In this document: piece after piece, positions 3,038-42,093 of the stretch
How the letters are laid out: each line of letters begins with the position of its first letter
Position numbering within the stretch: the first letter of the stretch is position 1
Assembly (NCBI RefSeq): GCF_009649955.1
Contig: NZ_CP045875.1
Location: 1,531,501 to 1,595,500 of the forward strand
DNA length: 64,000 nt
Source: Heliorestis convoluta
GTDB lineage: Bacteria > Bacillota > Desulfitobacteriia > Heliobacteriales > Heliobacteriaceae
Direction: 5' to 3'
Translations under genes and position numbers: made by a program
The notes under the pieces: model-generated
What the model was told of the DNA's origin: nothing
The model's database searches: none
What the model saw: the letters and a program-made list of their open reading frames with translations, nothing else

Positions 3038-3145
3038 GCGTGCCCAATAGCCTTGCATCAAAGTAAAAAAATACAAAAAAATCTATTAGCAACCTGTGAT
3101 TTTTTCGTTGGATACAAGTCGACCGAAGGAAGATATCCCTTCTCA

Positions 3146-3520
<375 letters not shown>

Positions 3521-3582
3521 TACTCTATTACATCGCGAATATTTCTCTGTGTAGCTTTCAGGGAGCAACCTTGTAGATATTG

Positions 3583-3658
3583 GGCCCGTTGGTCAAGTGG
3601 TCTAAGACACCGCCCTTTCACGGCGGTAACAGGGGTTCGAATCCCCTACGGGTCACCA
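3583..3658 (+). tRNA. tRNA-Glu (anticodon TTC)
   Basis: A 76-nt cloverleaf with acceptor GGCCCGT/ACGGGTC, discriminator A and an encoded CCA. The anticodon stem CCGCC/GGCGG closes loop CTTTCAC, giving anticodon TTC at 3617-3619. It lies 62 nt after the 23S fragment, as tRNAs often do behind rRNA operons. Glu-tRNA is also the precursor for the HemA/HemL pathway encoded at 53.7-63.2 kb. Confidence 0.95.
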
Positions 3659-33248: not shown

Positions 33249-34508
33249 GTGCCCATAGTAGTTCAGAAATTCGGTGGCTCTTCGGTCGCCAACGCTGAAC
33301 GGATCAAACGTGTGGCCCGACGGGTCGTAGAAACGAAAGAAGCAGGCAATCAAGTGATTGTAGTCGTATCAGCCATGGGTGATAGTACCGATGATCTGAT
33401 CGAACTAGCCAATCAAATCAACGAAAAACAAAAACCGCAAGCTCGTGAGATGGACATGCTCTTGGCGACAGGAGAACAAGTATCAATTGCTTTACTCGCC
33501 ATGGCCATTGCTCAACTGGGGCATGAAGCGGTCTCTTTAACAGGCCCGCAGGCAGGCGTTATGACCGAATCTGTTCACTGCAAAGCTCGAATTGTAGATA
33601 TTCGTACAGAGCGATTGCAAAAAGAATTAGAGGCCGGTCGCATCGTAATTGTTGCTGGATTCCAGGGTCTTACTGCCAACGGGGACATTGCCACTTTAGG
33701 CCGTGGTGGTTCTGATACAAGCGCTGTCGCTCTAGCAGTCGCAATTGGTGCACAAGTGTGTGAAATCTTTACAGATGTTGATGGCGTCTATACGACCGAT
33801 CCTCGTGTCGTTCCCAGAGCCCAGAAATTATCAAGAATTACTTATGATGAAATGCTAGAATTGGCCAGTTTAGGGGCCCAAGTTCTTCACCCGCGTTCAG
33901 TAGAACTGGGTAAAGCTTATAAAATGCCTATACATGTACGGTCTAGTTTTAATCATAATGACGGAACGATGGTGCAGGAGGCAGAAGGAGATATGGAAAA
34001 AGAGTTAATGGTCAGTGGTGTGACCTATGATATGAACGTAGTCAAGGTAGGTCTTTTTGACGTGCCCGATCGCCCCGGTATTGCAAGAATTCTTTTTACT
34101 GCACTGGCAAAAGCACATGTCAACGTAGACATGATCATACAAAGTGCCATGCACAATGAAAGAAACGATATATCTTTCACCGTAGGGCAAAGCGATCAAG
34201 AAGTGGCTGTTGCTGTCGTTCAACAAGTGAAGGAAGAAATCGGAGCTGGTGGTGTTATCTATGATGATAAAGTCGCCAAAGTTTCCATTGTTGGTGCGGG
34301 AATGATTAGTAGACCGGGTGTTGCTGCCCTGATGTTTGAAGCCATTTCCGAAGAAGGCATCAACATTGAAATGATTTCTACATCGGAAATTAAAGTTTCC
34401 TGTGTTATTGTGGCTGAAGATGCCAAAAGAGCTGTACAAGCAATTCACCGTAAGTTCGAACTCGATGGATTGGATGCAGTGAATTGTGAAGGATTTGCAA
34501 CAGCCTAA
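33249..34508 (+). CDS. lysC: Aspartate kinase
   Basis: A 419-residue enzyme of the first step of the Asp family (Lys, Thr, Met). It has [33 protein letters not shown] and [13 protein letters not shown]. Two C-terminal ACT domains (about 265-410) are the site of amino acid feedback. The GTG at 33249 is favoured by AAAGGAAG 8 nt upstream; the GTG at 33240 overlaps that RBS. Placement after thrB suggests threonine-linked control. Confidence 0.95.
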
Positions 34509-34510
34509 AA

Positions 34511-34559
34511 ACAAAGAAAACCCTGTCAGAGATGAACTGATAGGGTTTTCTTTGTCTAT
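34511..34559 (+). terminator. Strong Rho-independent terminator after lysC
   Basis: A perfect 19-bp stem (34511-34529/34537-34555), ACAAAGAAAACCCTGTCAG with its complement and one G-T pair, then a T-rich tail. Confidence 0.9.
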
Positions 34560-34891
34560 ACAGCATAAAAATACAAAAAAAAAGCAGCCAACACCGGGGA
34601 GGTTGACCGCTAAGGTAGGAGCAAAAATGTATGCAAACATGGTTTGCGCATGTCCGATCTTATCACAAAATAATTTTCGTTGTCTAGGAAAAAATTAGTG
34701 AAACTATGCACAATGAAGAAAGATTCAGCACATACATAACAGGATTTCAAAGAAACTACTAGAATTTATGATTTATATCCTATGATTCCGTCAAAGTATA
34801 ACGAATCAGTCATACCTTGTTGGGCACAACCCTTTGATGAAAATCACTAAAAATAAAGTAGTTACCAAAGATGAGAAAGAGAGAGGTTACT
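34560..34891. other. 332-bp intergenic region with a small hairpin
   Basis: A G-rich block CCGGGGAGGTTGACCGC (about 34594-34610) is followed by an ATGCAAAC/GTTTGCGCAT hairpin (about 34629-34651) and AT-rich DNA. I see no ORF with an RBS. The block is more structured than its surroundings and could hold a small RNA or the control region of the regulator at 34892. No known riboswitch class is recognisable. Confidence 0.35.
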
Positions 34892-35623
34892 ATGGTTTCA
34901 AAAGAAGAACAAGAAGAAGCGGTCCTTTCCGTGATTCATCGATACGACGAGCCTATCGGCTCAGGCAACATTCGTGAAAAAGTGGCAGAACGAGGTTTTC
35001 AGATCAGCGAAGCAACGGTGGGGCGATTGCTGAAAGACTTCGACAACCTCGGTTATACGCAGAAAATAGGTTACCAAGGGCGTATTATTACGAAGGAAGG
35101 CTACAGGCGTCTTTGCGAATTAAAGCATCGTCGTGAAAGAGAGTGTCTAAGCTTAGAATTGGCTGATAGCCTTTGCCCAGAAACACAAAAAAACATGCTA
35201 GATCTTTTAGTAGCCCGTCGAGCGATTGAAGGGGAAATAGCTTCTCTCGCAGCAGAACATATTCGAAAAGAAGAAATAATGGCTTTAGAAAAAATCTTAG
35301 AACATCAGATATTGCATCATCAACGAGGCGAACTTGCTGTAGAGCAAGACTTGGATTTTCATCGCATCGTGGCGCAAGCTTCACGAAATGAAATTCTAGA
35401 AAAAGCCATCTCACTGATTCGACAGCAAGGCCGTCATGCTACTTCTTTAGAGTACATACGACAACAGGTAAGCAAATCAACGATAGAAGATCATCAACAA
35501 ATCTATCAAGCTATATGTGAAGGTGACGCAGAAAAAGCTCGTCAAGCCATGATACAGCACATTGAAAATCTGATGAAAGATGTAAAAACCTATTGGCGCT
35601 ATAAAGAAAATCAAAAAAAGTAA
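34892..35623 (+). CDS. FCD-domain transcriptional regulator with NrpR-type winged helix
   Basis: A 243-residue protein. Residues about 5-70 form a winged helix (AVLSVIHRYDEPIGSGNIREKV, then SEATVGRLLKDFDNLGYT) of the RNase R/NrpR N-terminal type rather than the usual GntR domain. Residues about 90-230 are an all-helical FCD ligand-binding domain with the metal-site pattern DLDFHRIV and EDHQQIYQAI. FCD regulators (FadR, LldR) respond to small organic acids. It probably controls the five genes that follow in the same direction. The ATG at 34892 follows AGAGAGG. Confidence 0.75.
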   Translation: MVSKEEQEEAVLSVIHRYDEPIGSGNIREKVAERGFQISEATVGRLLKDFDNLGYTQKIGYQGRIITKEGYRRLCELKHRRERECLSLELADSLCPETQKNMLDLLVARRAIEGEIASLAAEHIRKEEIMALEKILEHQILHHQRGELAVEQDLDFHRIVAQASRNEILEKAISLIRQQGRHATSLEYIRQQVSKSTIEDHQQIYQAICEGDAEKARQAMIQHIENLMKDVKTYWRYKENQKK

Positions 35624-35733
35624 GGAAAAAGAGAAAAAAAGATCTTTTACAAGAAGGATTTTCATCTTCAAAAGCGAATTGATATAACTATCGCAACTCA
35701 TCAATGATGAGCGATGAATGGAGGTGACGCTTT

Positions 35734-36165
35734 TTGACGGATCCATACAGCAAAGGTCTTTTGAAAGTTCATCCCTATGCCAAGAAAAAAGATGTGACGG
35801 GTGAACTGGTTGCCATTCTCGATGGGAAAATAGAAAATCGCGGCTTAAAGCTAATTAAACCCATCTCAAGAGTTCTCTGCGAAGATGAAATTCATGAAAT
35901 TATCATCACCGATGAACAAGATGCAGCGCCAGGTAAAGAAGTAAACGCCATTGCCTATCTCGCTTTTTTTGAATTAAAAGGTGGCGGTGTCATTGTTACA
36001 GGTGATGAAGTATACCTGAAAGGAAAACTTATAGGACAAATCGCCGGTTTTGATGAAACCCATATGCCCAATCATATCAACATTATTGTCAAATCTGCAG
36101 AACGTTACACTGGCATGGAAATTAATGCTGAAATCGGAATGCAGTTATTGATAAAAAAACCTTAA
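35734..36165 (+). CDS. Conserved-looking hypothetical protein, island gene
   Basis: A 143-residue protein without signal peptide or membrane helix, rich in short beta strands (LVAILDGKIENRG, GVIVTGDEVYLKGKLIGQIAGFDETHMPNH). The TTG start follows GGAGGTGA. It lies 58 nt before the PLP enzyme, so the two are likely cotranscribed. I do not recognise the family. A small binding or accessory subunit of the neighbouring enzyme is possible but not shown. Confidence 0.55.
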   Translation: MTDPYSKGLLKVHPYAKKKDVTGELVAILDGKIENRGLKLIKPISRVLCEDEIHEIIITDEQDAAPGKEVNAIAYLAFFELKGGGVIVTGDEVYLKGKLIGQIAGFDETHMPNHINIIVKSAERYTGMEINAEIGMQLLIKKP

Positions 36166-36223
36166 GCAAACTTCATTAATGAAATGCGGAATTTTAGTTT
36201 CAAAATTCGAAAGGAGTTTCACT

Positions 36224-37687
36224 GTGAGCAAATTCAAGTACAAGTTCCAAATGTATAAGAACCTTCAAGCGAGCCTTCCAGCAATTTATGGAGAAGCAAA
36301 AAAAGCAGCCGATGAAATTGGCATTCCCACAGAAATTCGAGGCAAATTCGGTCTCACCGGTGCCATCTCTGGATGCCCTGCACCGCTTCGCAAAGACATT
36401 GTAGAAGCGGGCGAAAAAGCAGGTCAAGAAGTAGTCCCTCTCGCAAAATATGTCGATGAGATTCGAGAAATTGTAAAAGACGTTTATGGTGAAGAATACG
36501 ATGCTGCGCCTACAAGCACTTGCGAAGCGGCACTTTGGCTTACCTTCGACTGCCTCTTCACACCACCGAATTTAGGTCGCGGCGATAATTATAGAGCTCG
36601 CTATATAGCTCCTTATGAAAAACATCTCCATCACCAAGGTGCCTACGGTCGTCCTTTCCCTGCAAAGTACAAAGATATTTTTGCCGATCGTGGCACCACA
36701 GCCGGTGAATTGGGCTTCTATGGCAAAAGGCAAAACAACCTTGACAGCATTATCGTTCCACTAGAAGGTGCCAAATACGATGTTCACGGCATTAAGTACC
36801 ATCCGACGCCTTTGCTTTCAGGTGTAGATGCAGAAGCTTCATTGAAAAAGCTGCAAGAAGTAGCAGCTCAGCAAGCTGAAAGCCTAACAGGCCTCACTTC
36901 CTTAGGCTATGACACGCCAGGTTATGGATATGCGCAACAAGATGATGAAGGAACGCCTCTACTGCAAAAAGGCTTGTCTGACATAGCTAAGAAATACAAC
37001 GTTCCATATGTGATTGACAATGCCTGGGGTATTCCTTTTGCAGGGACAAGCATCGTCAAAACAGGTGCCGACGTTATGGTCTATGCCATGGACAAGGCAA
37101 CAGGAGCGGCCACATCCGGTCTTATTATCGGTAAAGAAGAGGTAATGGTTCCCCTTCGCAGAGCCATGGGCATGCATGGTGACCGCTTCGGAACGACAGC
37201 TTCCTATGGTAAAGCTGCTTATGTAACCTTTGATCCCGGTAAAGAAGCACTGGCTACACAAGTGCAAGCACTGAAAGTGCTTCGTGACAATCCAGAAATC
37301 GTTACAAAGCCTGTAGATGATTTAGAGCGACTCGTTCGTGAAGAGTTTGCGAATATTCATCCAAGATTAAAAGAAGGCATTGTCATTACCAAGTCCTATA
37401 ACTCTACAGCGGTAGAAGTGAACTATGAAGGTACTTGGAAAGATGGCATGGGCCTACCCATCTTCTCCATTGAAGATATGTATGCGGGATCAAACATTTT
37501 CCAAACAGGCATGGCCCAGATGGGTGTAATTCCAACAGTCGCTTATGATGGCAATATCTTTATCTCTCCCGGTCTCGGTACGACAGATGAAGAAGGTCAA
37601 TTAAATGAAGAATTGTCTCGCTATGCCATTCGTGCTCTCGTACGATTGCTAGAAATCGTTGGTCGTCACGTTGGTATTATCGAGTAA
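36224..37687 (+). CDS. Fold-type I PLP-dependent enzyme, substrate unknown
   Basis: A 487-residue enzyme. The aspartate that contacts the pyridine nitrogen is in VPYVIDNAWGIPFAG (about residue 262). The likely Schiff-base lysine is in YAMDKATGAATSG (about 290), as in aminotransferase/lyase/SepCysS-like enzymes. SGCPAPLRKDI and TSTCEAALWLTF shape the N-terminal substrate region. It carries more cysteines and histidines near the predicted active site (YEKHLHHQGAYGRP) than a standard aminotransferase. The GTG start lies 8 nt after AAAGGAG. The context (flavoprotein, permease, FCD regulator) suggests breakdown of an imported amino-type compound. The reaction is unknown. Confidence 0.6.
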   Translation: MSKFKYKFQMYKNLQASLPAIYGEAKKAADEIGIPTEIRGKFGLTGAISGCPAPLRKDIVEAGEKAGQEVVPLAKYVDEIREIVKDVYGEEYDAAPTSTCEAALWLTFDCLFTPPNLGRGDNYRARYIAPYEKHLHHQGAYGRPFPAKYKDIFADRGTTAGELGFYGKRQNNLDSIIVPLEGAKYDVHGIKYHPTPLLSGVDAEASLKKLQEVAAQQAESLTGLTSLGYDTPGYGYAQQDDEGTPLLQKGLSDIAKKYNVPYVIDNAWGIPFAGTSIVKTGADVMVYAMDKATGAATSGLIIGKEEVMVPLRRAMGMHGDRFGTTASYGKAAYVTFDPGKEALATQVQALKVLRDNPEIVTKPVDDLERLVREEFANIHPRLKEGIVITKSYNSTAVEVNYEGTWKDGMGLPIFSIEDMYAGSNIFQTGMAQMGVIPTVAYDGNIFISPGLGTTDEEGQLNEELSRYAIRALVRLLEIVGRHVGIIE

Positions 37688-37732
37688 AAAAGTGCCTCAA
37701 AAGCACTAGTTCCCTCTTTCTCTAGCTTTCCA

Positions 37733-37802
37733 CGGAGGCAGATGACGAAGAGCTTTACAAGGGAAGTCATCTGTCTCCATAAAAAAATAGTTTTTTTATG
37801 GA
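37733..37802 (+). promoter_or_regulatory. Two consecutive hairpins before the flavoprotein gene
   Basis: GGAGGCAGATGAC pairs with GTCATCTGTCTCC (37733-37778). Then CCATAAAAAAA pairs with TTTTTTTATGG (37778-37802). The second hairpin runs into the GGAGGG ribosome binding site of the gene at 37813, so it could mask that site or adjust expression within the operon. Confidence 0.55.
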
Positions 37803-37812
37803 GGGTCACAAC

Positions 37813-39090
37813 ATGGCAAAAGTCGTTATCATCGGTGGTGGTTGGGCAGGCGCTGGCGCAGCGGTAACTGCAGCCAAAGCAGGAGCAGACGTAGTATTAC
37901 TAGAGCGCACAGACATGCTGTTAGGAACAGGTCTGGTTGGTGGCATTATGCGCAACAACGGTCGTTTTACAGCTACAGAAGAAGCAATCGCACTAGGCGC
38001 GCCTGAACTTTTTCAGGCTGTTGATGATACAGCAAGACATAAAAACATAGAGTTTCCCGGTCACAAGCATGCCACGCTTTACGATGTTGCTAAAATAGAG
38101 CCTGCTGTACGTCAATGTTTAGAGCAATTGGCCGTCAACGTTCGCTTTGAAAGCCTCGTTAATGGCGTAAAAGTAGAAAACAATCGTATTACAGCAGTTG
38201 TACTTAAATCAGGTGAAGAAATTACGGGTGATGTATTCATTGAAACAACAGGTACAGCAGGCCCTATGGGCAACTGCGCCAAGTATGGCAATGGCTGTGC
38301 CATGTGTATCCTCCGCTGTCCCACCTTTGGTGGTAGAGTCAGCATTGCAGCCAAAGCCGGCGTTCAAGAAATTGTAGGTAAAAAAGGTGATGGCTCGATT
38401 GGTGCCATGTCTGGTTCTTGCAAACTCCATAAAGAATCACTAGCACCTTCTATTGTAGAAGAATTAGACAAAACAGGTGTTGCCATTGTACCCATTCCTG
38501 CAAAACTACAAAAAGGTGACAGCCTCGGGGTCAAAGCCTGTCAACAATACGCCTTAAAAGAGTTTGCAGAAAATATCATTCTTCTCGACACAGGTCATGC
38601 CAAATTAATGTCGCCTTACTATGCATTGGACAAGCTACGACAAATTCCCGGCTTTGAAGATGCTCGATTTGAAGATCCTTATTCAGGTGGTATCGGCAAC
38701 TCTGTACGTTACCTTGCTTTATCACCCCGTGACAACACTCTAAAAGTTGAAGGCATTGAAAACCTTTTCTGTGGTGGGGAAAAAGCGGGTCTGCTCGTCG
38801 GTCATACAGAAGCAATTGTGACAGGTTCCCTAGCAGGGCATAACGCTGTCCGTCAAGCCAAAGGAAAAGAGCTGGTGGAACTTCCTACCAACTTAGCCAT
38901 TGGTGATGCCATCGCGCATGTTAACGAACAAATGAAAACAGAAGAAGGACTGGGCAAAAAGTACACCTTCTCAGGCTCCGTTTATTTTGAGCGGATGAAA
39001 GCAGAAGGAATATACTGTACCGACATAGCCAAAATCCAAGAAAAGGTAGATCAAGCTGGGCTTACAGGCGTTTTTGCTAAGAAAATATAG
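37813..39090 (+). CDS. FAD-dependent oxidoreductase related to GidA/TrmFO
   Basis: A 425-residue flavoprotein. The FAD-binding motif VVIIGGGWAGAGAAVTAAKAG is at the N-terminus, and the C-terminal FAD segment reads GGEKAGLLVGHTEAIVTGSLAG, very like TrmFO/GidA. In the middle is a cysteine cluster NCAKYGNGCAMCILRCP (about 156-172) that could hold a metal or FeS centre and is not a standard TrmFO feature. The operon position suggests a metabolic oxidoreductase rather than tRNA modification. ATG 37813 is preferred over 37798, which sits in the hairpin. Confidence 0.65.
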   Translation: MAKVVIIGGGWAGAGAAVTAAKAGADVVLLERTDMLLGTGLVGGIMRNNGRFTATEEAIALGAPELFQAVDDTARHKNIEFPGHKHATLYDVAKIEPAVRQCLEQLAVNVRFESLVNGVKVENNRITAVVLKSGEEITGDVFIETTGTAGPMGNCAKYGNGCAMCILRCPTFGGRVSIAAKAGVQEIVGKKGDGSIGAMSGSCKLHKESLAPSIVEELDKTGVAIVPIPAKLQKGDSLGVKACQQYALKEFAENIILLDTGHAKLMSPYYALDKLRQIPGFEDARFEDPYSGGIGNSVRYLALSPRDNTLKVEGIENLFCGGEKAGLLVGHTEAIVTGSLAGHNAVRQAKGKELVELPTNLAIGDAIAHVNEQMKTEEGLGKKYTFSGSVYFERMKAEGIYCTDIAKIQEKVDQAGLTGVFAKKI

Positions 39091-39114
39091 CCTAAGGTAA
39101 GGCATAGAAGAGAA

Positions 39115-39152
39115 ACTTTTGCCATGCCTCTATATAGAGGCATGGCAAAAGT
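39115..39152. repeat. Perfect 38-bp palindrome
   Basis: ACTTTTGCCATGCCTCTAT at 39115-39133 is followed directly by its exact reverse complement at 39134-39152. No spacer separates the halves, and A-rich DNA rather than a T-run follows. It lies between the flavoprotein and the permease, so it may be an RNA hairpin that sets relative expression or a large operator. Confidence 0.8.
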
Positions 39153-39259
39153 AAAAAAACATGACCAATGTCATTTTACTATAAAAAAGTACCACGATGG
39201 TTCCTTTCATGCTCCCAGCACAGTAAAAAATCCAAATAATTAAGAAGGGATTTTTGCAA

Positions 39260-40663
39260 ATGCCAGAGTTAACACTTTTACACTGGATCTACTTATCGGT
39301 TGTGCTATGGGTTATCGGATCTATGATCTTTCGTAGAGACGTTGTGGTTCCCTGTATCGTCGGTATCTTTCTAATCGGTTGGGTCTACCAAGAGTTTAAA
39401 CTAGTTGGTGCTGCGCAGACAGTCTTCCGAGCTCTTGAAACATCAGGTACAGAACTTTTTGATATAATGTTGGTCATTGCTCTGATGGTAGCTATGCTAA
39501 AGGCGCTACAAAGCATTGGATCGGATGTCTTGATGGTTGCGCCAGCAAAGCGCTTTATGACCAAACCGACTGTAGCCTTTATTACCTTAGCAACAGTCAT
39601 GTATATTGCAGCAACCTTCTTCTGGCCTACACCTGCTGTTGCTCTTGTGGGAACAATACTAATCCCGGTTGCCATTAGCGCCGGCTTGGCTCCTCTGGCA
39701 GCTGCGATGGCCTTGAACTTAGCCGGACACGGTATGGCTCTCTCCGGTGACGTAGTCTTACAAGGCGCACCAGCCATTACAGCAAGAGCTGCTGATGTCG
39801 ATGTAGCCCTTCTTGTTACCAAAGGCTGGATGTTCGCTACGATTACCGGTATTGTTGCTCTTACTGTTGCATACTTTATGCTACGCAAGCGAAATGAATT
39901 GGTAGCCAATGCAGAACAAATCAAGAAAAATGAACTATTAAAATCGAATACAGAAGTGAAAAAGACGGCTGTATCAAAGTTTTTTGCCGCTGCCGTTCCT
40001 GCTGTTTTCTTCTTTATTATTATTGTTATGATTCGTTCTAACTTAAACCCCGATCTTCCCGATATCAAAGGTGGTGGCGCTACTTCACTGCTCGGTGGTA
40101 CAGCCGTTTTCTTCTTACTCGCATCGAGCCTAGCGGGCCACGGACTGTCCGCACTGGAAAAAGTGGTGGGCTTCCTGCGTGAAGGTTTTCTTTTCTCCAT
40201 TAAAATCTTTGCTGCTGTTATTCCCATTGCAGGCTTCTTCTTCTTGGGAGCGCCTAGCTTAGCCCCAGTTATTTTAGGAGAAGGTGCACCTGGATTTATG
40301 TTTGATCTAGGTACAGCACTGGCTCATGTACTACCTCTTGGTACGGTACCTCTGGCATTTGGTATTGTCCTGATCGGAATTATGACGGGTCTTGATGGTT
40401 CTGGATTCTCAGGGTTGCCTCTCGTTGGTTCTTTGGCCAACGCCTTAGGTGGACCTGCTGGTGTCGATGTCGCTACTTTAGCAGCTTTAGGCCAAGTGGC
40501 TGCCATTTGGACAGGCGGTGGTACTTTAACTGCTTGGGCTTTCGGTGTCGTTGCAGATGCTGGTATTGCTGGCGTCAGCCCTATAGACTTGGTGAGGCGA
40601 AACTTTGCTTGTGTTGCTATAGGACTCTTCATTACAACCCTTGTAGCTATAATGATACTATGA
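39260..40663 (+). CDS. Putative organic-anion permease (ion-transporter superfamily)
   Basis: A 467-residue integral membrane protein with about 11-12 hydrophobic helices across its whole length and one charged cytoplasmic loop (about 215-240). Its glycine/proline-rich pairs (WPTPAVALVGTILIPVAIS, MTGLDGSGFSGLPLVGSLANALGG) resemble dicarboxylate/citrate/gluconate permeases. The ATG at 39260 follows AAGAAGGGA. It probably imports the substrate of the PLP enzyme and flavoprotein upstream. The exact substrate is not visible. Confidence 0.65.
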   Translation: MPELTLLHWIYLSVVLWVIGSMIFRRDVVVPCIVGIFLIGWVYQEFKLVGAAQTVFRALETSGTELFDIMLVIALMVAMLKALQSIGSDVLMVAPAKRFMTKPTVAFITLATVMYIAATFFWPTPAVALVGTILIPVAISAGLAPLAAAMALNLAGHGMALSGDVVLQGAPAITARAADVDVALLVTKGWMFATITGIVALTVAYFMLRKRNELVANAEQIKKNELLKSNTEVKKTAVSKFFAAAVPAVFFFIIIVMIRSNLNPDLPDIKGGGATSLLGGTAVFFLLASSLAGHGLSALEKVVGFLREGFLFSIKIFAAVIPIAGFFFLGAPSLAPVILGEGAPGFMFDLGTALAHVLPLGTVPLAFGIVLIGIMTGLDGSGFSGLPLVGSLANALGGPAGVDVATLAALGQVAAIWTGGGTLTAWAFGVVADAGIAGVSPIDLVRRNFACVAIGLFITTLVAIMIL

Positions 40664-40743: not shown

Positions 40744-40773
40744 AAAAAGAGGGCTTTCGGAGTCCTCTTTTTT
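40744..40773 (+). terminator. Rho-independent terminator after the permease
   Basis: AAAAAGAGG pairs with CCTCTTTTT (40744-40752/40764-40772) around a GCTTTCGGAGT turn, followed by T residues. It separates the island from the aminotransferase. Confidence 0.85.
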
Positions 40774-40836: not shown

Positions 40837-42093
40837 TTGTCTTCACTATTGCTACAGTATGAAAAAAATATTAACCCTTCAATGGCTCGTATCTTTCGTT
40901 TTATGGGATTGGGAACGGAAGCAGTTAGAGCAGAAGGTTCTTATGTATATGACGATCAGGGGAATTGCTATCTTGATTTTTTGGGCAACTTTGGTGTTTT
41001 CAATTTGGGTCATCGCCACCCTCGTGTTCTTGAAGCAGTTCGGCAGCAGTTAGAAAAACTTCCTCAGACAACACGCTACTTGGTCGATAGACCTACTGCG
41101 GAATTAGCGGCTTTGTTAGCAGAAGTAACGCCTGGTGACTTACAATATTCTTTTTTTTGCAACTCTGGTGCAGAAGCTGTAGAAGGTGCCATTAAGCTGG
41201 CTCGACTTTCAACAGGGAAGAAAGGGATTATTAGCACCTTTAATAGTTTTCATGGAAAAACAATGGGAGCTTTAACTGTTTCAGGTCGTGAACTTTTTCG
41301 AAAACCTTGTGAACCCTTGCTGCCTCAGGTAGAACATATTGCTTTTGGTGATATCGATGCACTTAAAAAAGTAATAGCCAATCATTCCGATTGGGCTGCT
41401 TTGGTTCTAGAGCCCATTCAAGGTGAAGGTGGTGTACAAGTTCCGCCGAAAGGATATCTTCGACAAGTAGAAGATATCTGTCGCAACGAGGGAATTCTAT
41501 TGATTCTTGATGAAGTCCAAACGGGCCTAGGCAGAAGTGGTTATTTTTTTGTTTGTGAAAAAGAAGAAGTCGTGCCTGATATTCTTTGTTTGGCCAAAGC
41601 TTTAGGCGGTGGAGTCATGCCGATAGGGGCCATTGTAGGGCGACCTACTGTTTGGGAACCTTTTTTAGAGAACCCATTTATTCATACGAGCACTTTTGGT
41701 GGCAATCCTCTCGCTTGTGCGGCAGCCCTGGCAACCATTAAAGTAATTATAGAAGAGGAATTGGTTCAGCAAAGTCGAGAGAAAGGAAACAAGGCTCTCA
41801 CGTATTTGCAACAAGTCGCTGCCAACCATGCCGATGTAATCGTAGAAGTTCGTGGACAAGGGTTACTCATTGGCATTGAGCTAGCCCATGAAGGGATGGG
41901 TGGCTATATGATCAATCGGATGGTTGAAGAGAAAATCATTGTTGGCTATACTTTAAATAACAGTCGCGTCATTCGATTAGAGCCACCTTTGAATATAGCC
42001 ATGGAGGACCTAGAAAGAGCTCTAGATCGAATTGCTACGATTACAAAAGAAATGACTGATCAGCGAGAAGATTTTATGGAATCGACTCAGTAA
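40837..42093 (+). CDS. Class III aminotransferase (ornithine/putrescine-type)
   Basis: A 418-residue PLP enzyme. It has FFCNSGAEAVEGAIKLAR, FHGKTMGALTVSG, LILDEVQTGLGRSG and the lysine in LAKALGGGVMPIGA. The FGVFNLGHRHP start and the overall sequence resemble putrescine or acetylornithine aminotransferases. It starts with TTG behind AAAGGAGG. It has no arg genes around it. Its neighbour is an SRPBCC protein, so it may act on a diamine or omega-amino acid. The substrate is not settled. Confidence 0.8.
   Translation: MSSLLLQYEKNINPSMARIFRFMGLGTEAVRAEGSYVYDDQGNCYLDFLGNFGVFNLGHRHPRVLEAVRQQLEKLPQTTRYLVDRPTAELAALLAEVTPGDLQYSFFCNSGAEAVEGAIKLARLSTGKKGIISTFNSFHGKTMGALTVSGRELFRKPCEPLLPQVEHIAFGDIDALKKVIANHSDWAALVLEPIQGEGGVQVPPKGYLRQVEDICRNEGILLILDEVQTGLGRSGYFFVCEKEEVVPDILCLAKALGGGVMPIGAIVGRPTVWEPFLENPFIHTSTFGGNPLACAAALATIKVIIEEELVQQSREKGNKALTYLQQVAANHADVIVEVRGQGLLIGIELAHEGMGGYMINRMVEEKIIVGYTLNNSRVIRLEPPLNIAMEDLERALDRIATITKEMTDQREDFMESTQ

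Follow-up and report, generated by a model that had tools for sequence, protein, structure and literature searches.

What is the function of the five-gene island at positions 34892-40663 of a 64,000-nucleotide stretch of the Heliorestis convoluta genome? Heliorestis is a soda-lake photosynthetic bacterium. Its genome (G000) is a single closed contig of 3.22 Mb, and the stretch analysed here at its full length, referred to below as the window, covers positions 1,531,501-1,595,500. The island encodes an FCD-domain regulator, a small DUF6917 protein, an enzyme binding pyridoxal 5′-phosphate (PLP enzyme), a GidA-like flavin adenine dinucleotide (FAD) oxidoreductase and a permease. An earlier note, made from the sequence of the window, had taken it for an undescribed five-gene system that would be tied to the catabolism of an amino-type anion. 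Since the genes stay together across phyla, including Bacillota and Ignavibacteria (80 loci), and match no characterized operon, neither of the two outcomes that the note had named as speaking against itself was found. From comparison of sequences and gene neighbourhoods we consider it probable that the island makes up half of a widely conserved but split pathway which depends on adenosylcobalamin (AdoCbl) and handles an amino compound. The note was right about an undescribed system and missed its B12 half.

Conservation and co-occurrence of the gene set

Genome contigs were scanned with the PLP enzyme alone as query, and the open reading frames (ORFs) neighbouring each match were clustered. 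The 80 loci obtained span Firmicutes, Ignavibacteria, Treponema, Candidatus Adiutrix and other groups. Within approximately 10 kb, cluster members were present as follows: the PLP enzyme at 73 of the 80 loci, a large B12 protein at 63, DUF6917 at 59, a KamB-like protein at 55 and the FAD enzyme at 53, followed by a protein of about 84 amino acids (47 loci), the regulator (42), RidA (37) and the permease (28). All of these are minimum counts, since contigs stop short and overlapping frames are lost by the simple ORF caller; cluster B (see below), for example, yielded its small protein only on re-inspection.

At the level of genomes, scores set the full-length B12 protein clearly apart from generic B12 domains (at least 814 bits versus at most 74 bits). 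It occurs in 38 of 398 genomes of the phylum and the PLP family in 39, including all 38. The hypergeometric probability of this co-occurrence by chance, 2 × 10−52, assumes independent genomes and is hence an overstatement. Co-occurrence spans about 20 families and presence is patchy within several of them, which speaks against mere shared ancestry. Of 299 genomes, 28 have DUF6917, and every one of these also carries the PLP enzyme and the full-length mutase-like B12 protein. Copies of DUF6917 and the PLP enzyme number two and two in H. convoluta, G097, G138, G262 and G331, three and three in G308, and one and two in G092 and G285. The single PLP-only genome (G004) belongs to a heliobacterium in which a diverged PLP gene occupies the usual site of the cluster and the mutase is absent. 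The heliobacterium G003 has a diverged PLP gene together with RidA at the same syntenic site, again without mutase. Such relic PLP genes at the cluster B site (L155 7051-8562; L156 7395-8810), from which mutase and DUF6917 are gone, represent a natural loss series in two heliobacteria. Judged from these distributions, PLP enzyme, DUF6917 and B12 protein are almost always co-resident, usually in one cluster with KamB, the 84-amino-acid protein, the FAD enzyme and RidA.

The Heliorestis genome yielded two copies each of the PLP enzyme and the B12 protein, and no more. Cluster B (approximately 1.099-1.106 Mb) is complete and has the order DUF6917-RidA-PLP-FAD-small protein-B12 protein-KamB. Cluster C (approximately 1.843-1.847 Mb) consists of RidA-small protein-B12 protein-KamB; a membrane-transport gene comes next. 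As cluster C holds the B12 genes that are missing from the window island (cluster A), A and C make up a second set, and we infer that they work together. The conserved core comprises the PLP enzyme and DUF6917 together with a protein resembling AdoCbl mutases, its small subunit and a KamB-type reactivase. Because three of these proteins are encoded elsewhere in the genome, the island is not a self-contained five-gene route, although the linkage of its genes, as claimed by the note, is real.

We found no paper describing this gene set, and the H. convoluta genome paper does not mention an aminomutase. The closest named relative of the island is that of Heliorestis acidaminivorans, whose PLP enzyme is 93% identical. 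Annotated plasmid-borne relatives added gene context, not function.

The B12 protein, the small protein and KamB

The B12 protein of about 606 amino acids carries a B12-binding domain fused ahead of a barrel. By sequence, only the first 125 or so residues could be assigned, and these are closest to the beta subunit of lysine 5,6-aminomutase. A match to PF02310 (55.6 bits) and the invariant H15 in DPVHD(I/V)G (30 sequences) point to a B12-binding Rossmann domain with the cobalt-ligand histidine (HxxG). AlphaFold2 (AF2) models in this study rest on 30-37 sequences. That of the B12 protein (mean predicted local distance difference test, pLDDT, 87) had as its top PDB hit lysine 5,6-aminomutase alpha (E = 1 × 10−15), followed by glutamate mutase and then OraE of ornithine aminomutase; with 1xrs_A, 8t0v_A and 9q1a_C as best matches, its barrel is of the KamD/OraE type. 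Profile comparison with KamD using hhalign covered 401 columns at 21% identity (P = 2.6 × 10−6). The small protein of about 84 amino acids aligned to the N-terminal domain of KamE (P = 7 × 10−6; controls 0.005-0.45), and an identity with OraS was rejected. Both Heliorestis KamB homologues scored above the curated cut-off of 210 for NF052386 (216.6 and 221.3 bits), an equivalog name that is not proof of the same client enzyme.

Class III enzymes hold PLP in the barrel, tethered by a lysine of the B12 domain, which is Lys629 in OraE (PMC4256349). The stretch bearing this PLP lysine in KamE and OraE is deleted in 10 of 10 B12 proteins aligned. A barrel motif of KamD and OraE, IRTxGQS, which has a role in the PLP site, was found in 4/4 OraE and, with a strict pattern, in 4/7 KamD sequences; HFDPSWGAR stands instead in the four partner proteins checked and is invariant in the B12-protein alignment. 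Since both lysine and motif are absent, the B12 protein is by motif not a class III aminomutase. PLP binding has presumably been lost; the protein might nonetheless act in the manner of an isomerase with an amino compound as its target. The picture that emerges is a lysine-aminomutase-like enzyme which is cut differently: the KamE N-terminal domain is a separate chain, and the B12 domain is fused before the barrel.

Glutamate mutase (GlmE/MutE with S) likewise combines barrel and B12 domain in a B12 enzyme without PLP of its own and ranks among the top fold matches. However, hhalign detected no profile relation of the B12 protein to GlmE, so that membership of this family was rejected, and the Pfam family Met_asp_mut_E finds nothing in the Heliorestis genome. 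In other genomes, proteins of about 560-615 amino acids with weak Met_asp_mut_E matches of 26-31 bits (G113:C1:1102007, G137:C18:65512, G151:C2:377940) possibly form another uncharacterized mutase group.

The PLP enzyme and DUF6917

No curated family scored above its cut-off for the PLP enzyme (best Pfam 14.1 versus 22.8, best NCBIfam 29 versus 385). Its AF2 model (pLDDT 81.7; predicted template modelling score, pTM, 0.86) matched fold-type-I enzymes in the PDB. Solved relatives are distant, none of the structures listed exceeding a query-normalized TM-score of about 0.5. An alignment of 37 sequences showed K306 in MDKATG and D280 to be invariant, which makes them candidates for the Schiff-base lysine and the partner of the pyridine nitrogen, respectively. 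Modelled fold and conserved lysine together argue for a fold-type-I enzyme in which these residue roles are predicted. The DgaE, SelA and Cys-Met PLP enzymes share this overall fold and local similarity around the PLP lysine, whereas the score of the PLP enzyme is far below the curated cut-off of each. C115, H149, H151 and H152 are also invariant, and the His and Cys residues highlighted by the earlier note are thus real; their proximity to the active site is hypothetical. Sequence comparison suggests a GTG start later than that of the ORF (Table 1). A PLP homologue with 45% identity in the aerobe Variovorax (L203 8119-13926) lies in a set consisting of GntR, a sulfonate-type ATP-binding cassette transporter, the PLP gene and RidA.

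DUF6917 is assigned far above the gathering cut-off of 27 bits (Table 1), and we found no paper naming this domain. Neither DUF6917 nor the permease has convincing relatives among solved structures; a 26-residue match to a designed protein included no stretch that passed alone. In Thermomicrobium, DUF6917 adjoins an enzyme dependent on thiamine diphosphate (ThDP). On a Streptomyces plasmid, a ThDP enzyme annotated as dxs carries the DUF6917 match in its N-terminal part (coordinates for these DUF6917/ThDP contexts: L205 11995-14322, L204 11986-14233, L157 8435-10330), and in G308 a DUF6917 match runs into the beginning of an ORF region that resembles ThDP enzymes. This context fits, if weakly, with DUF6917 being a partner of C–C cleaving enzymes.

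The flavoprotein, RidA and a diaminopimelate-dehydrogenase homologue

The note had described the flavoprotein as GidA-like with an added cysteine cluster, which agrees with our data: PF01134 matched with 122 bits, and C160, C167, C170 and C174 are invariant in 31 homologues. It shares this GIDA domain with MnmG and TrmFO. It reaches 34-41 bits against equivalog cut-offs of 262-525, and it differs from both in its own invariant cysteines and its metabolic gene context. It is a putative amine or amino-acid dehydrogenase with an Fe-S cluster. Cysteine-rich proteins with a common N-terminal Cys motif adjoin the FAD gene on either strand (L059 19364-20320, L016 12825-13628, L036 13090-13884); one type gives a weak 2Fe-2S match, and electron partners are a possible role.

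Eight Ignavibacteria-type loci carry a homologue of diaminopimelate (DAP) dehydrogenase beside the PLP cluster, mostly directly 5′ of DUF6917-PLP. The three homologues scanned scored 297-334 bits against the TIGR01921 cut-off of 181. The operon order in Ignavibacteria is dehydrogenase-DUF6917-PLP-small subunit-mutase-reactivase-NhaC. FAD genes were counted at 48 loci and DAP-dehydrogenase genes at 8, with no locus having both, and RidA accompanies 32 of the 48 FAD loci and none of the 8 dehydrogenase loci. An NAD dehydrogenase itself hydrolyses the imine that it forms. Oxidation of an amine by an FAD enzyme, in contrast, calls for a separate hydrolysis of the imine, which is a task of Rid proteins (PMC4433059, PMC5619798). 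The mutual exclusion and the association of RidA with FAD loci suggest that the two oxidants are alternatives, although the split also tracks lineage (Bacillota versus Ignavibacteria) and several loci have neither.

Layout of the island, regulator and permease

All five ORFs lie on the plus strand and are followed by the terminator that the note had placed at 40744 (Table 1). The end of the proposed span coincides with the permease stop codon; its beginning, 34892, corresponds to an internal ATG of the regulator ORF, the second in frame, whereas the ORF opens at 34871. Upstream are hom-thrC-thrB-lysC, as read from the families of the ORF translations, and the hairpin after lysC sets the island apart from these genes. 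The palindrome between the FAD and permease genes is free of a loop, occurs once in the genome and is not kept at the same place in H. acidaminivorans; it is perhaps an operator.

Table 1. Features of the island and its borders (window positions)
Feature	Position	Strand	Basis
Terminator-like hairpin 3′ of lysC	34506..34560	+	24 nt arms, 88% complementary, -29.1 kcal/mol, z -8.1
FCD-domain transcriptional regulator, HTH_12 winged helix	34871..35623 (alternative start 34892)	+	PF07729, PF08461
DUF6917 protein, 143 aa; putative partner of the PLP enzyme	35734..36165	+	PF21891, 163.9 bits
PLP fold-type-I enzyme, uncurated family	36179..37687 (likely start GTG 36224)	+	AF2 model, 37-sequence alignment
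GidA-like FAD oxidoreductase, invariant Cys cluster	37798..39090	+	PF01134, 122 bits; alignment
Perfect 38-bp palindrome	39115..39152		Single genomic copy
Permease, no family	39254..40663	+	About 11 hydrophobic segments (hydropathy)
Intrinsic terminator closing the island	40744..40772	+	Fold -16.3 kcal/mol, z -3.8

The regulator combines an FCD domain (86.9 bits) with an N-terminus that matches HTH_12 (48.1 bits) instead of GntR. The permease gave no match whatsoever in Pfam or NCBIfam, so that the resemblance to anion transporters seen by the note could not be supported. A relation to NhaC or CaCA exchangers was rejected. A second copy stands alone and unlinked at 2.934 Mb of the Heliorestis genome. 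Homologues on Caballeronia and Arthrobacter plasmids (L207 7983-9596; L208 7980-9467) adjoin oxygenase, amidase, aldehyde dehydrogenase and Rid genes and may transport ring-type or aromatic compounds. About nine loci also have genes of the Na/Ca-exchanger family next to the cluster (L028 3254-4303; L036 7825-8841; others).

Directly past the island terminator, window positions 40837-42093 encode a class III aminotransferase scoring below the cut-off for putrescine aminotransferase; relatives of it are also found near the cluster in loci L013 and L038. Elsewhere in the window, positions 3124-3658 hold a partial 23S rRNA copy comprising the 3′ end (approximately 390 bases, model positions 2527-2912) and then tRNA-Glu; the remainder of the rRNA gene was not seen upstream. 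Four Rfam scans covering 27 sources revealed no riboswitch or T-box near the clusters that might hint at the substrate, and the T-box in L093 adjoins a large valS-like gene, not the cluster.

Proposed pathway and alternative explanations

In the pathway that we propose, the permease would import the substrate, and the FCD regulator would sense substrate or product. The two-part B12 enzyme would isomerize the substrate or an intermediate by adenosyl-radical chemistry and be kept active by KamB. An amine would then be converted to an imine by the FAD/Fe-S enzyme, or its step be taken by the DAP-dehydrogenase homologue in Ignavibacteria, and RidA would hydrolyse the imine. Finally, PLP enzyme and DUF6917 may cleave or deaminate an amino-keto acid to yield central metabolites. 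This last, carbon-cleaving or deaminating assignment is proposed because the Ignavibacteria order parallels ord-ortA-ortB-oraS-oraE. A diamino or dicarboxylic amino acid as substrate is our guess. The note's undescribed metabolic system is upheld and a catabolic route for an amino-type anion is still conceivable, while its substrate and catabolic direction were not substantiated.

Several observations weigh against the proposed pathway. The 80 loci were picked with one query, are mutually related and not phylogenetically independent; their counts therefore describe the family, and co-occurrence in genomes is the test. The hhalign P values are single comparisons of shallow alignments, and comparison of similarity profiles gave no clear match between the window PLP gene and the mutase at 1.84 Mb. 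DUF6917 sits beside or fused to ThDP enzymes elsewhere. It was also rejected as OrtA, the small subunit of the 2-amino-4-ketopentanoate thiolase OrtAB (hhalign versus 24 OrtA, P = 0.058, like controls). Remote homologues of the PLP enzyme are found where there is no mutase, as in Variovorax, so that the link of the PLP reaction to B12 does not hold for all lineages. Likewise, FAD and RidA steps are not universal, as several anaerobes have neither FAD enzyme, RidA nor dehydrogenase at the locus. Finally, the heliobacterial cluster B lacks a transporter and is placed among housekeeping genes.

The last point bears on direction. The regulator and permease favour catabolism, whereas the transporter-free cluster B would also suit salvage or biosynthesis, as would the threonine and lysine biosynthesis genes found next to the cluster in Heliorestis, Sporomusa, Lucifera and others. 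The same enzymes might make, recycle or repair an intracellular amino compound, perhaps one linked to the aspartate family, and RidA is indeed a damage-control protein. We nevertheless hold this to be unlikely, if worth keeping in mind, since FCD-type regulators and permease or antiporter genes recur at many loci and uneven presence within families points to a trait that is dispensable. That the island is after all a self-contained catabolic route and the B12 genes serve another process would agree with its own regulator, permease and terminators and with the mutase-free PLP homologues. It appears distinctly unlikely, as the PLP enzyme is present in 38/38 mutase genomes and the mutase in 38/39 PLP genomes, both share one cluster at most loci, and Heliorestis has two copies of each. 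In a narrower form of the proposed pathway, the compound handled would be meso-diaminopimelate or the 2-amino-6-keto product derived from it, with cell-wall debris as the source; the dehydrogenase homologue in Ignavibacteria would agree with this. Six genomes holding it contain DapF, and a biosynthetic role of the dehydrogenase is hence not required there; for DapL as a biosynthetic alternative no genome scored above the cut-off, DapF alone being clear. The chance of this substrate is nonetheless slim, because the dehydrogenase occurs in one lineage, lysA adjoins it in some genomes, its family name is not proof of substrate and no literature support was found.

That the set is a diverged version of a known fermentation system for lysine (Kam) or ornithine (Ora/Ort) seems very improbable. 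The KamD-like barrel, the KamE-like B12 and N-terminal domains and the KamB reactivase are shared with lysine 5,6-aminomutase KamDE. However, domain order and partition differ, the loss of PLP lysine and IRTxGQS largely refutes membership, the B12 protein reaches 45-56 bits against the curated KamE cut-off of 280, and no MutS-like KamC was seen in the clusters. The oxidative ornithine cluster (ord-ortA-ortB-oraS-oraE-mutL) resembles the Ignavibacteria operon in gene order and, as we read it, in logic. Its division of labour between Ora mutase, Ord dehydrogenase and OrtAB is paralleled here by unrelated or re-partitioned proteins: the PLP enzyme is of fold type I, the reactivase is KamB-like and not MutL, and DUF6917 and the small protein are unrelated to OrtA and OraS.

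Implications

The AdoCbl-dependent pathway split between clusters A and C thus remains our preferred reading. As a tentative extension, somewhat more doubtful than the pathway itself, the partner may be a new class of AdoCbl isomerase, a re-cut, PLP-stripped lysine-5,6-aminomutase fold in an obligate pathway with the PLP enzyme and DUF6917, and we know of no such anaerobic route. AdoCbl isomerases are, to our knowledge, few, and every known class has distinct chemistry. If true, a separate and widespread family that has the lysine-aminomutase fold yet lacks the hallmarks of its PLP site would bear on the origin of class III and on the PLP-free chemistry of such barrels. The gene sets give a common context to orphan families, namely the PLP enzyme, DUF6917, the permease, the mutase-like protein and its small partner, and the predicted partners render the system testable. 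The gene sets also point to an unknown step in the metabolism of amino compounds in heliobacteria, sulfate reducers, acetogens and sediment bacteria.

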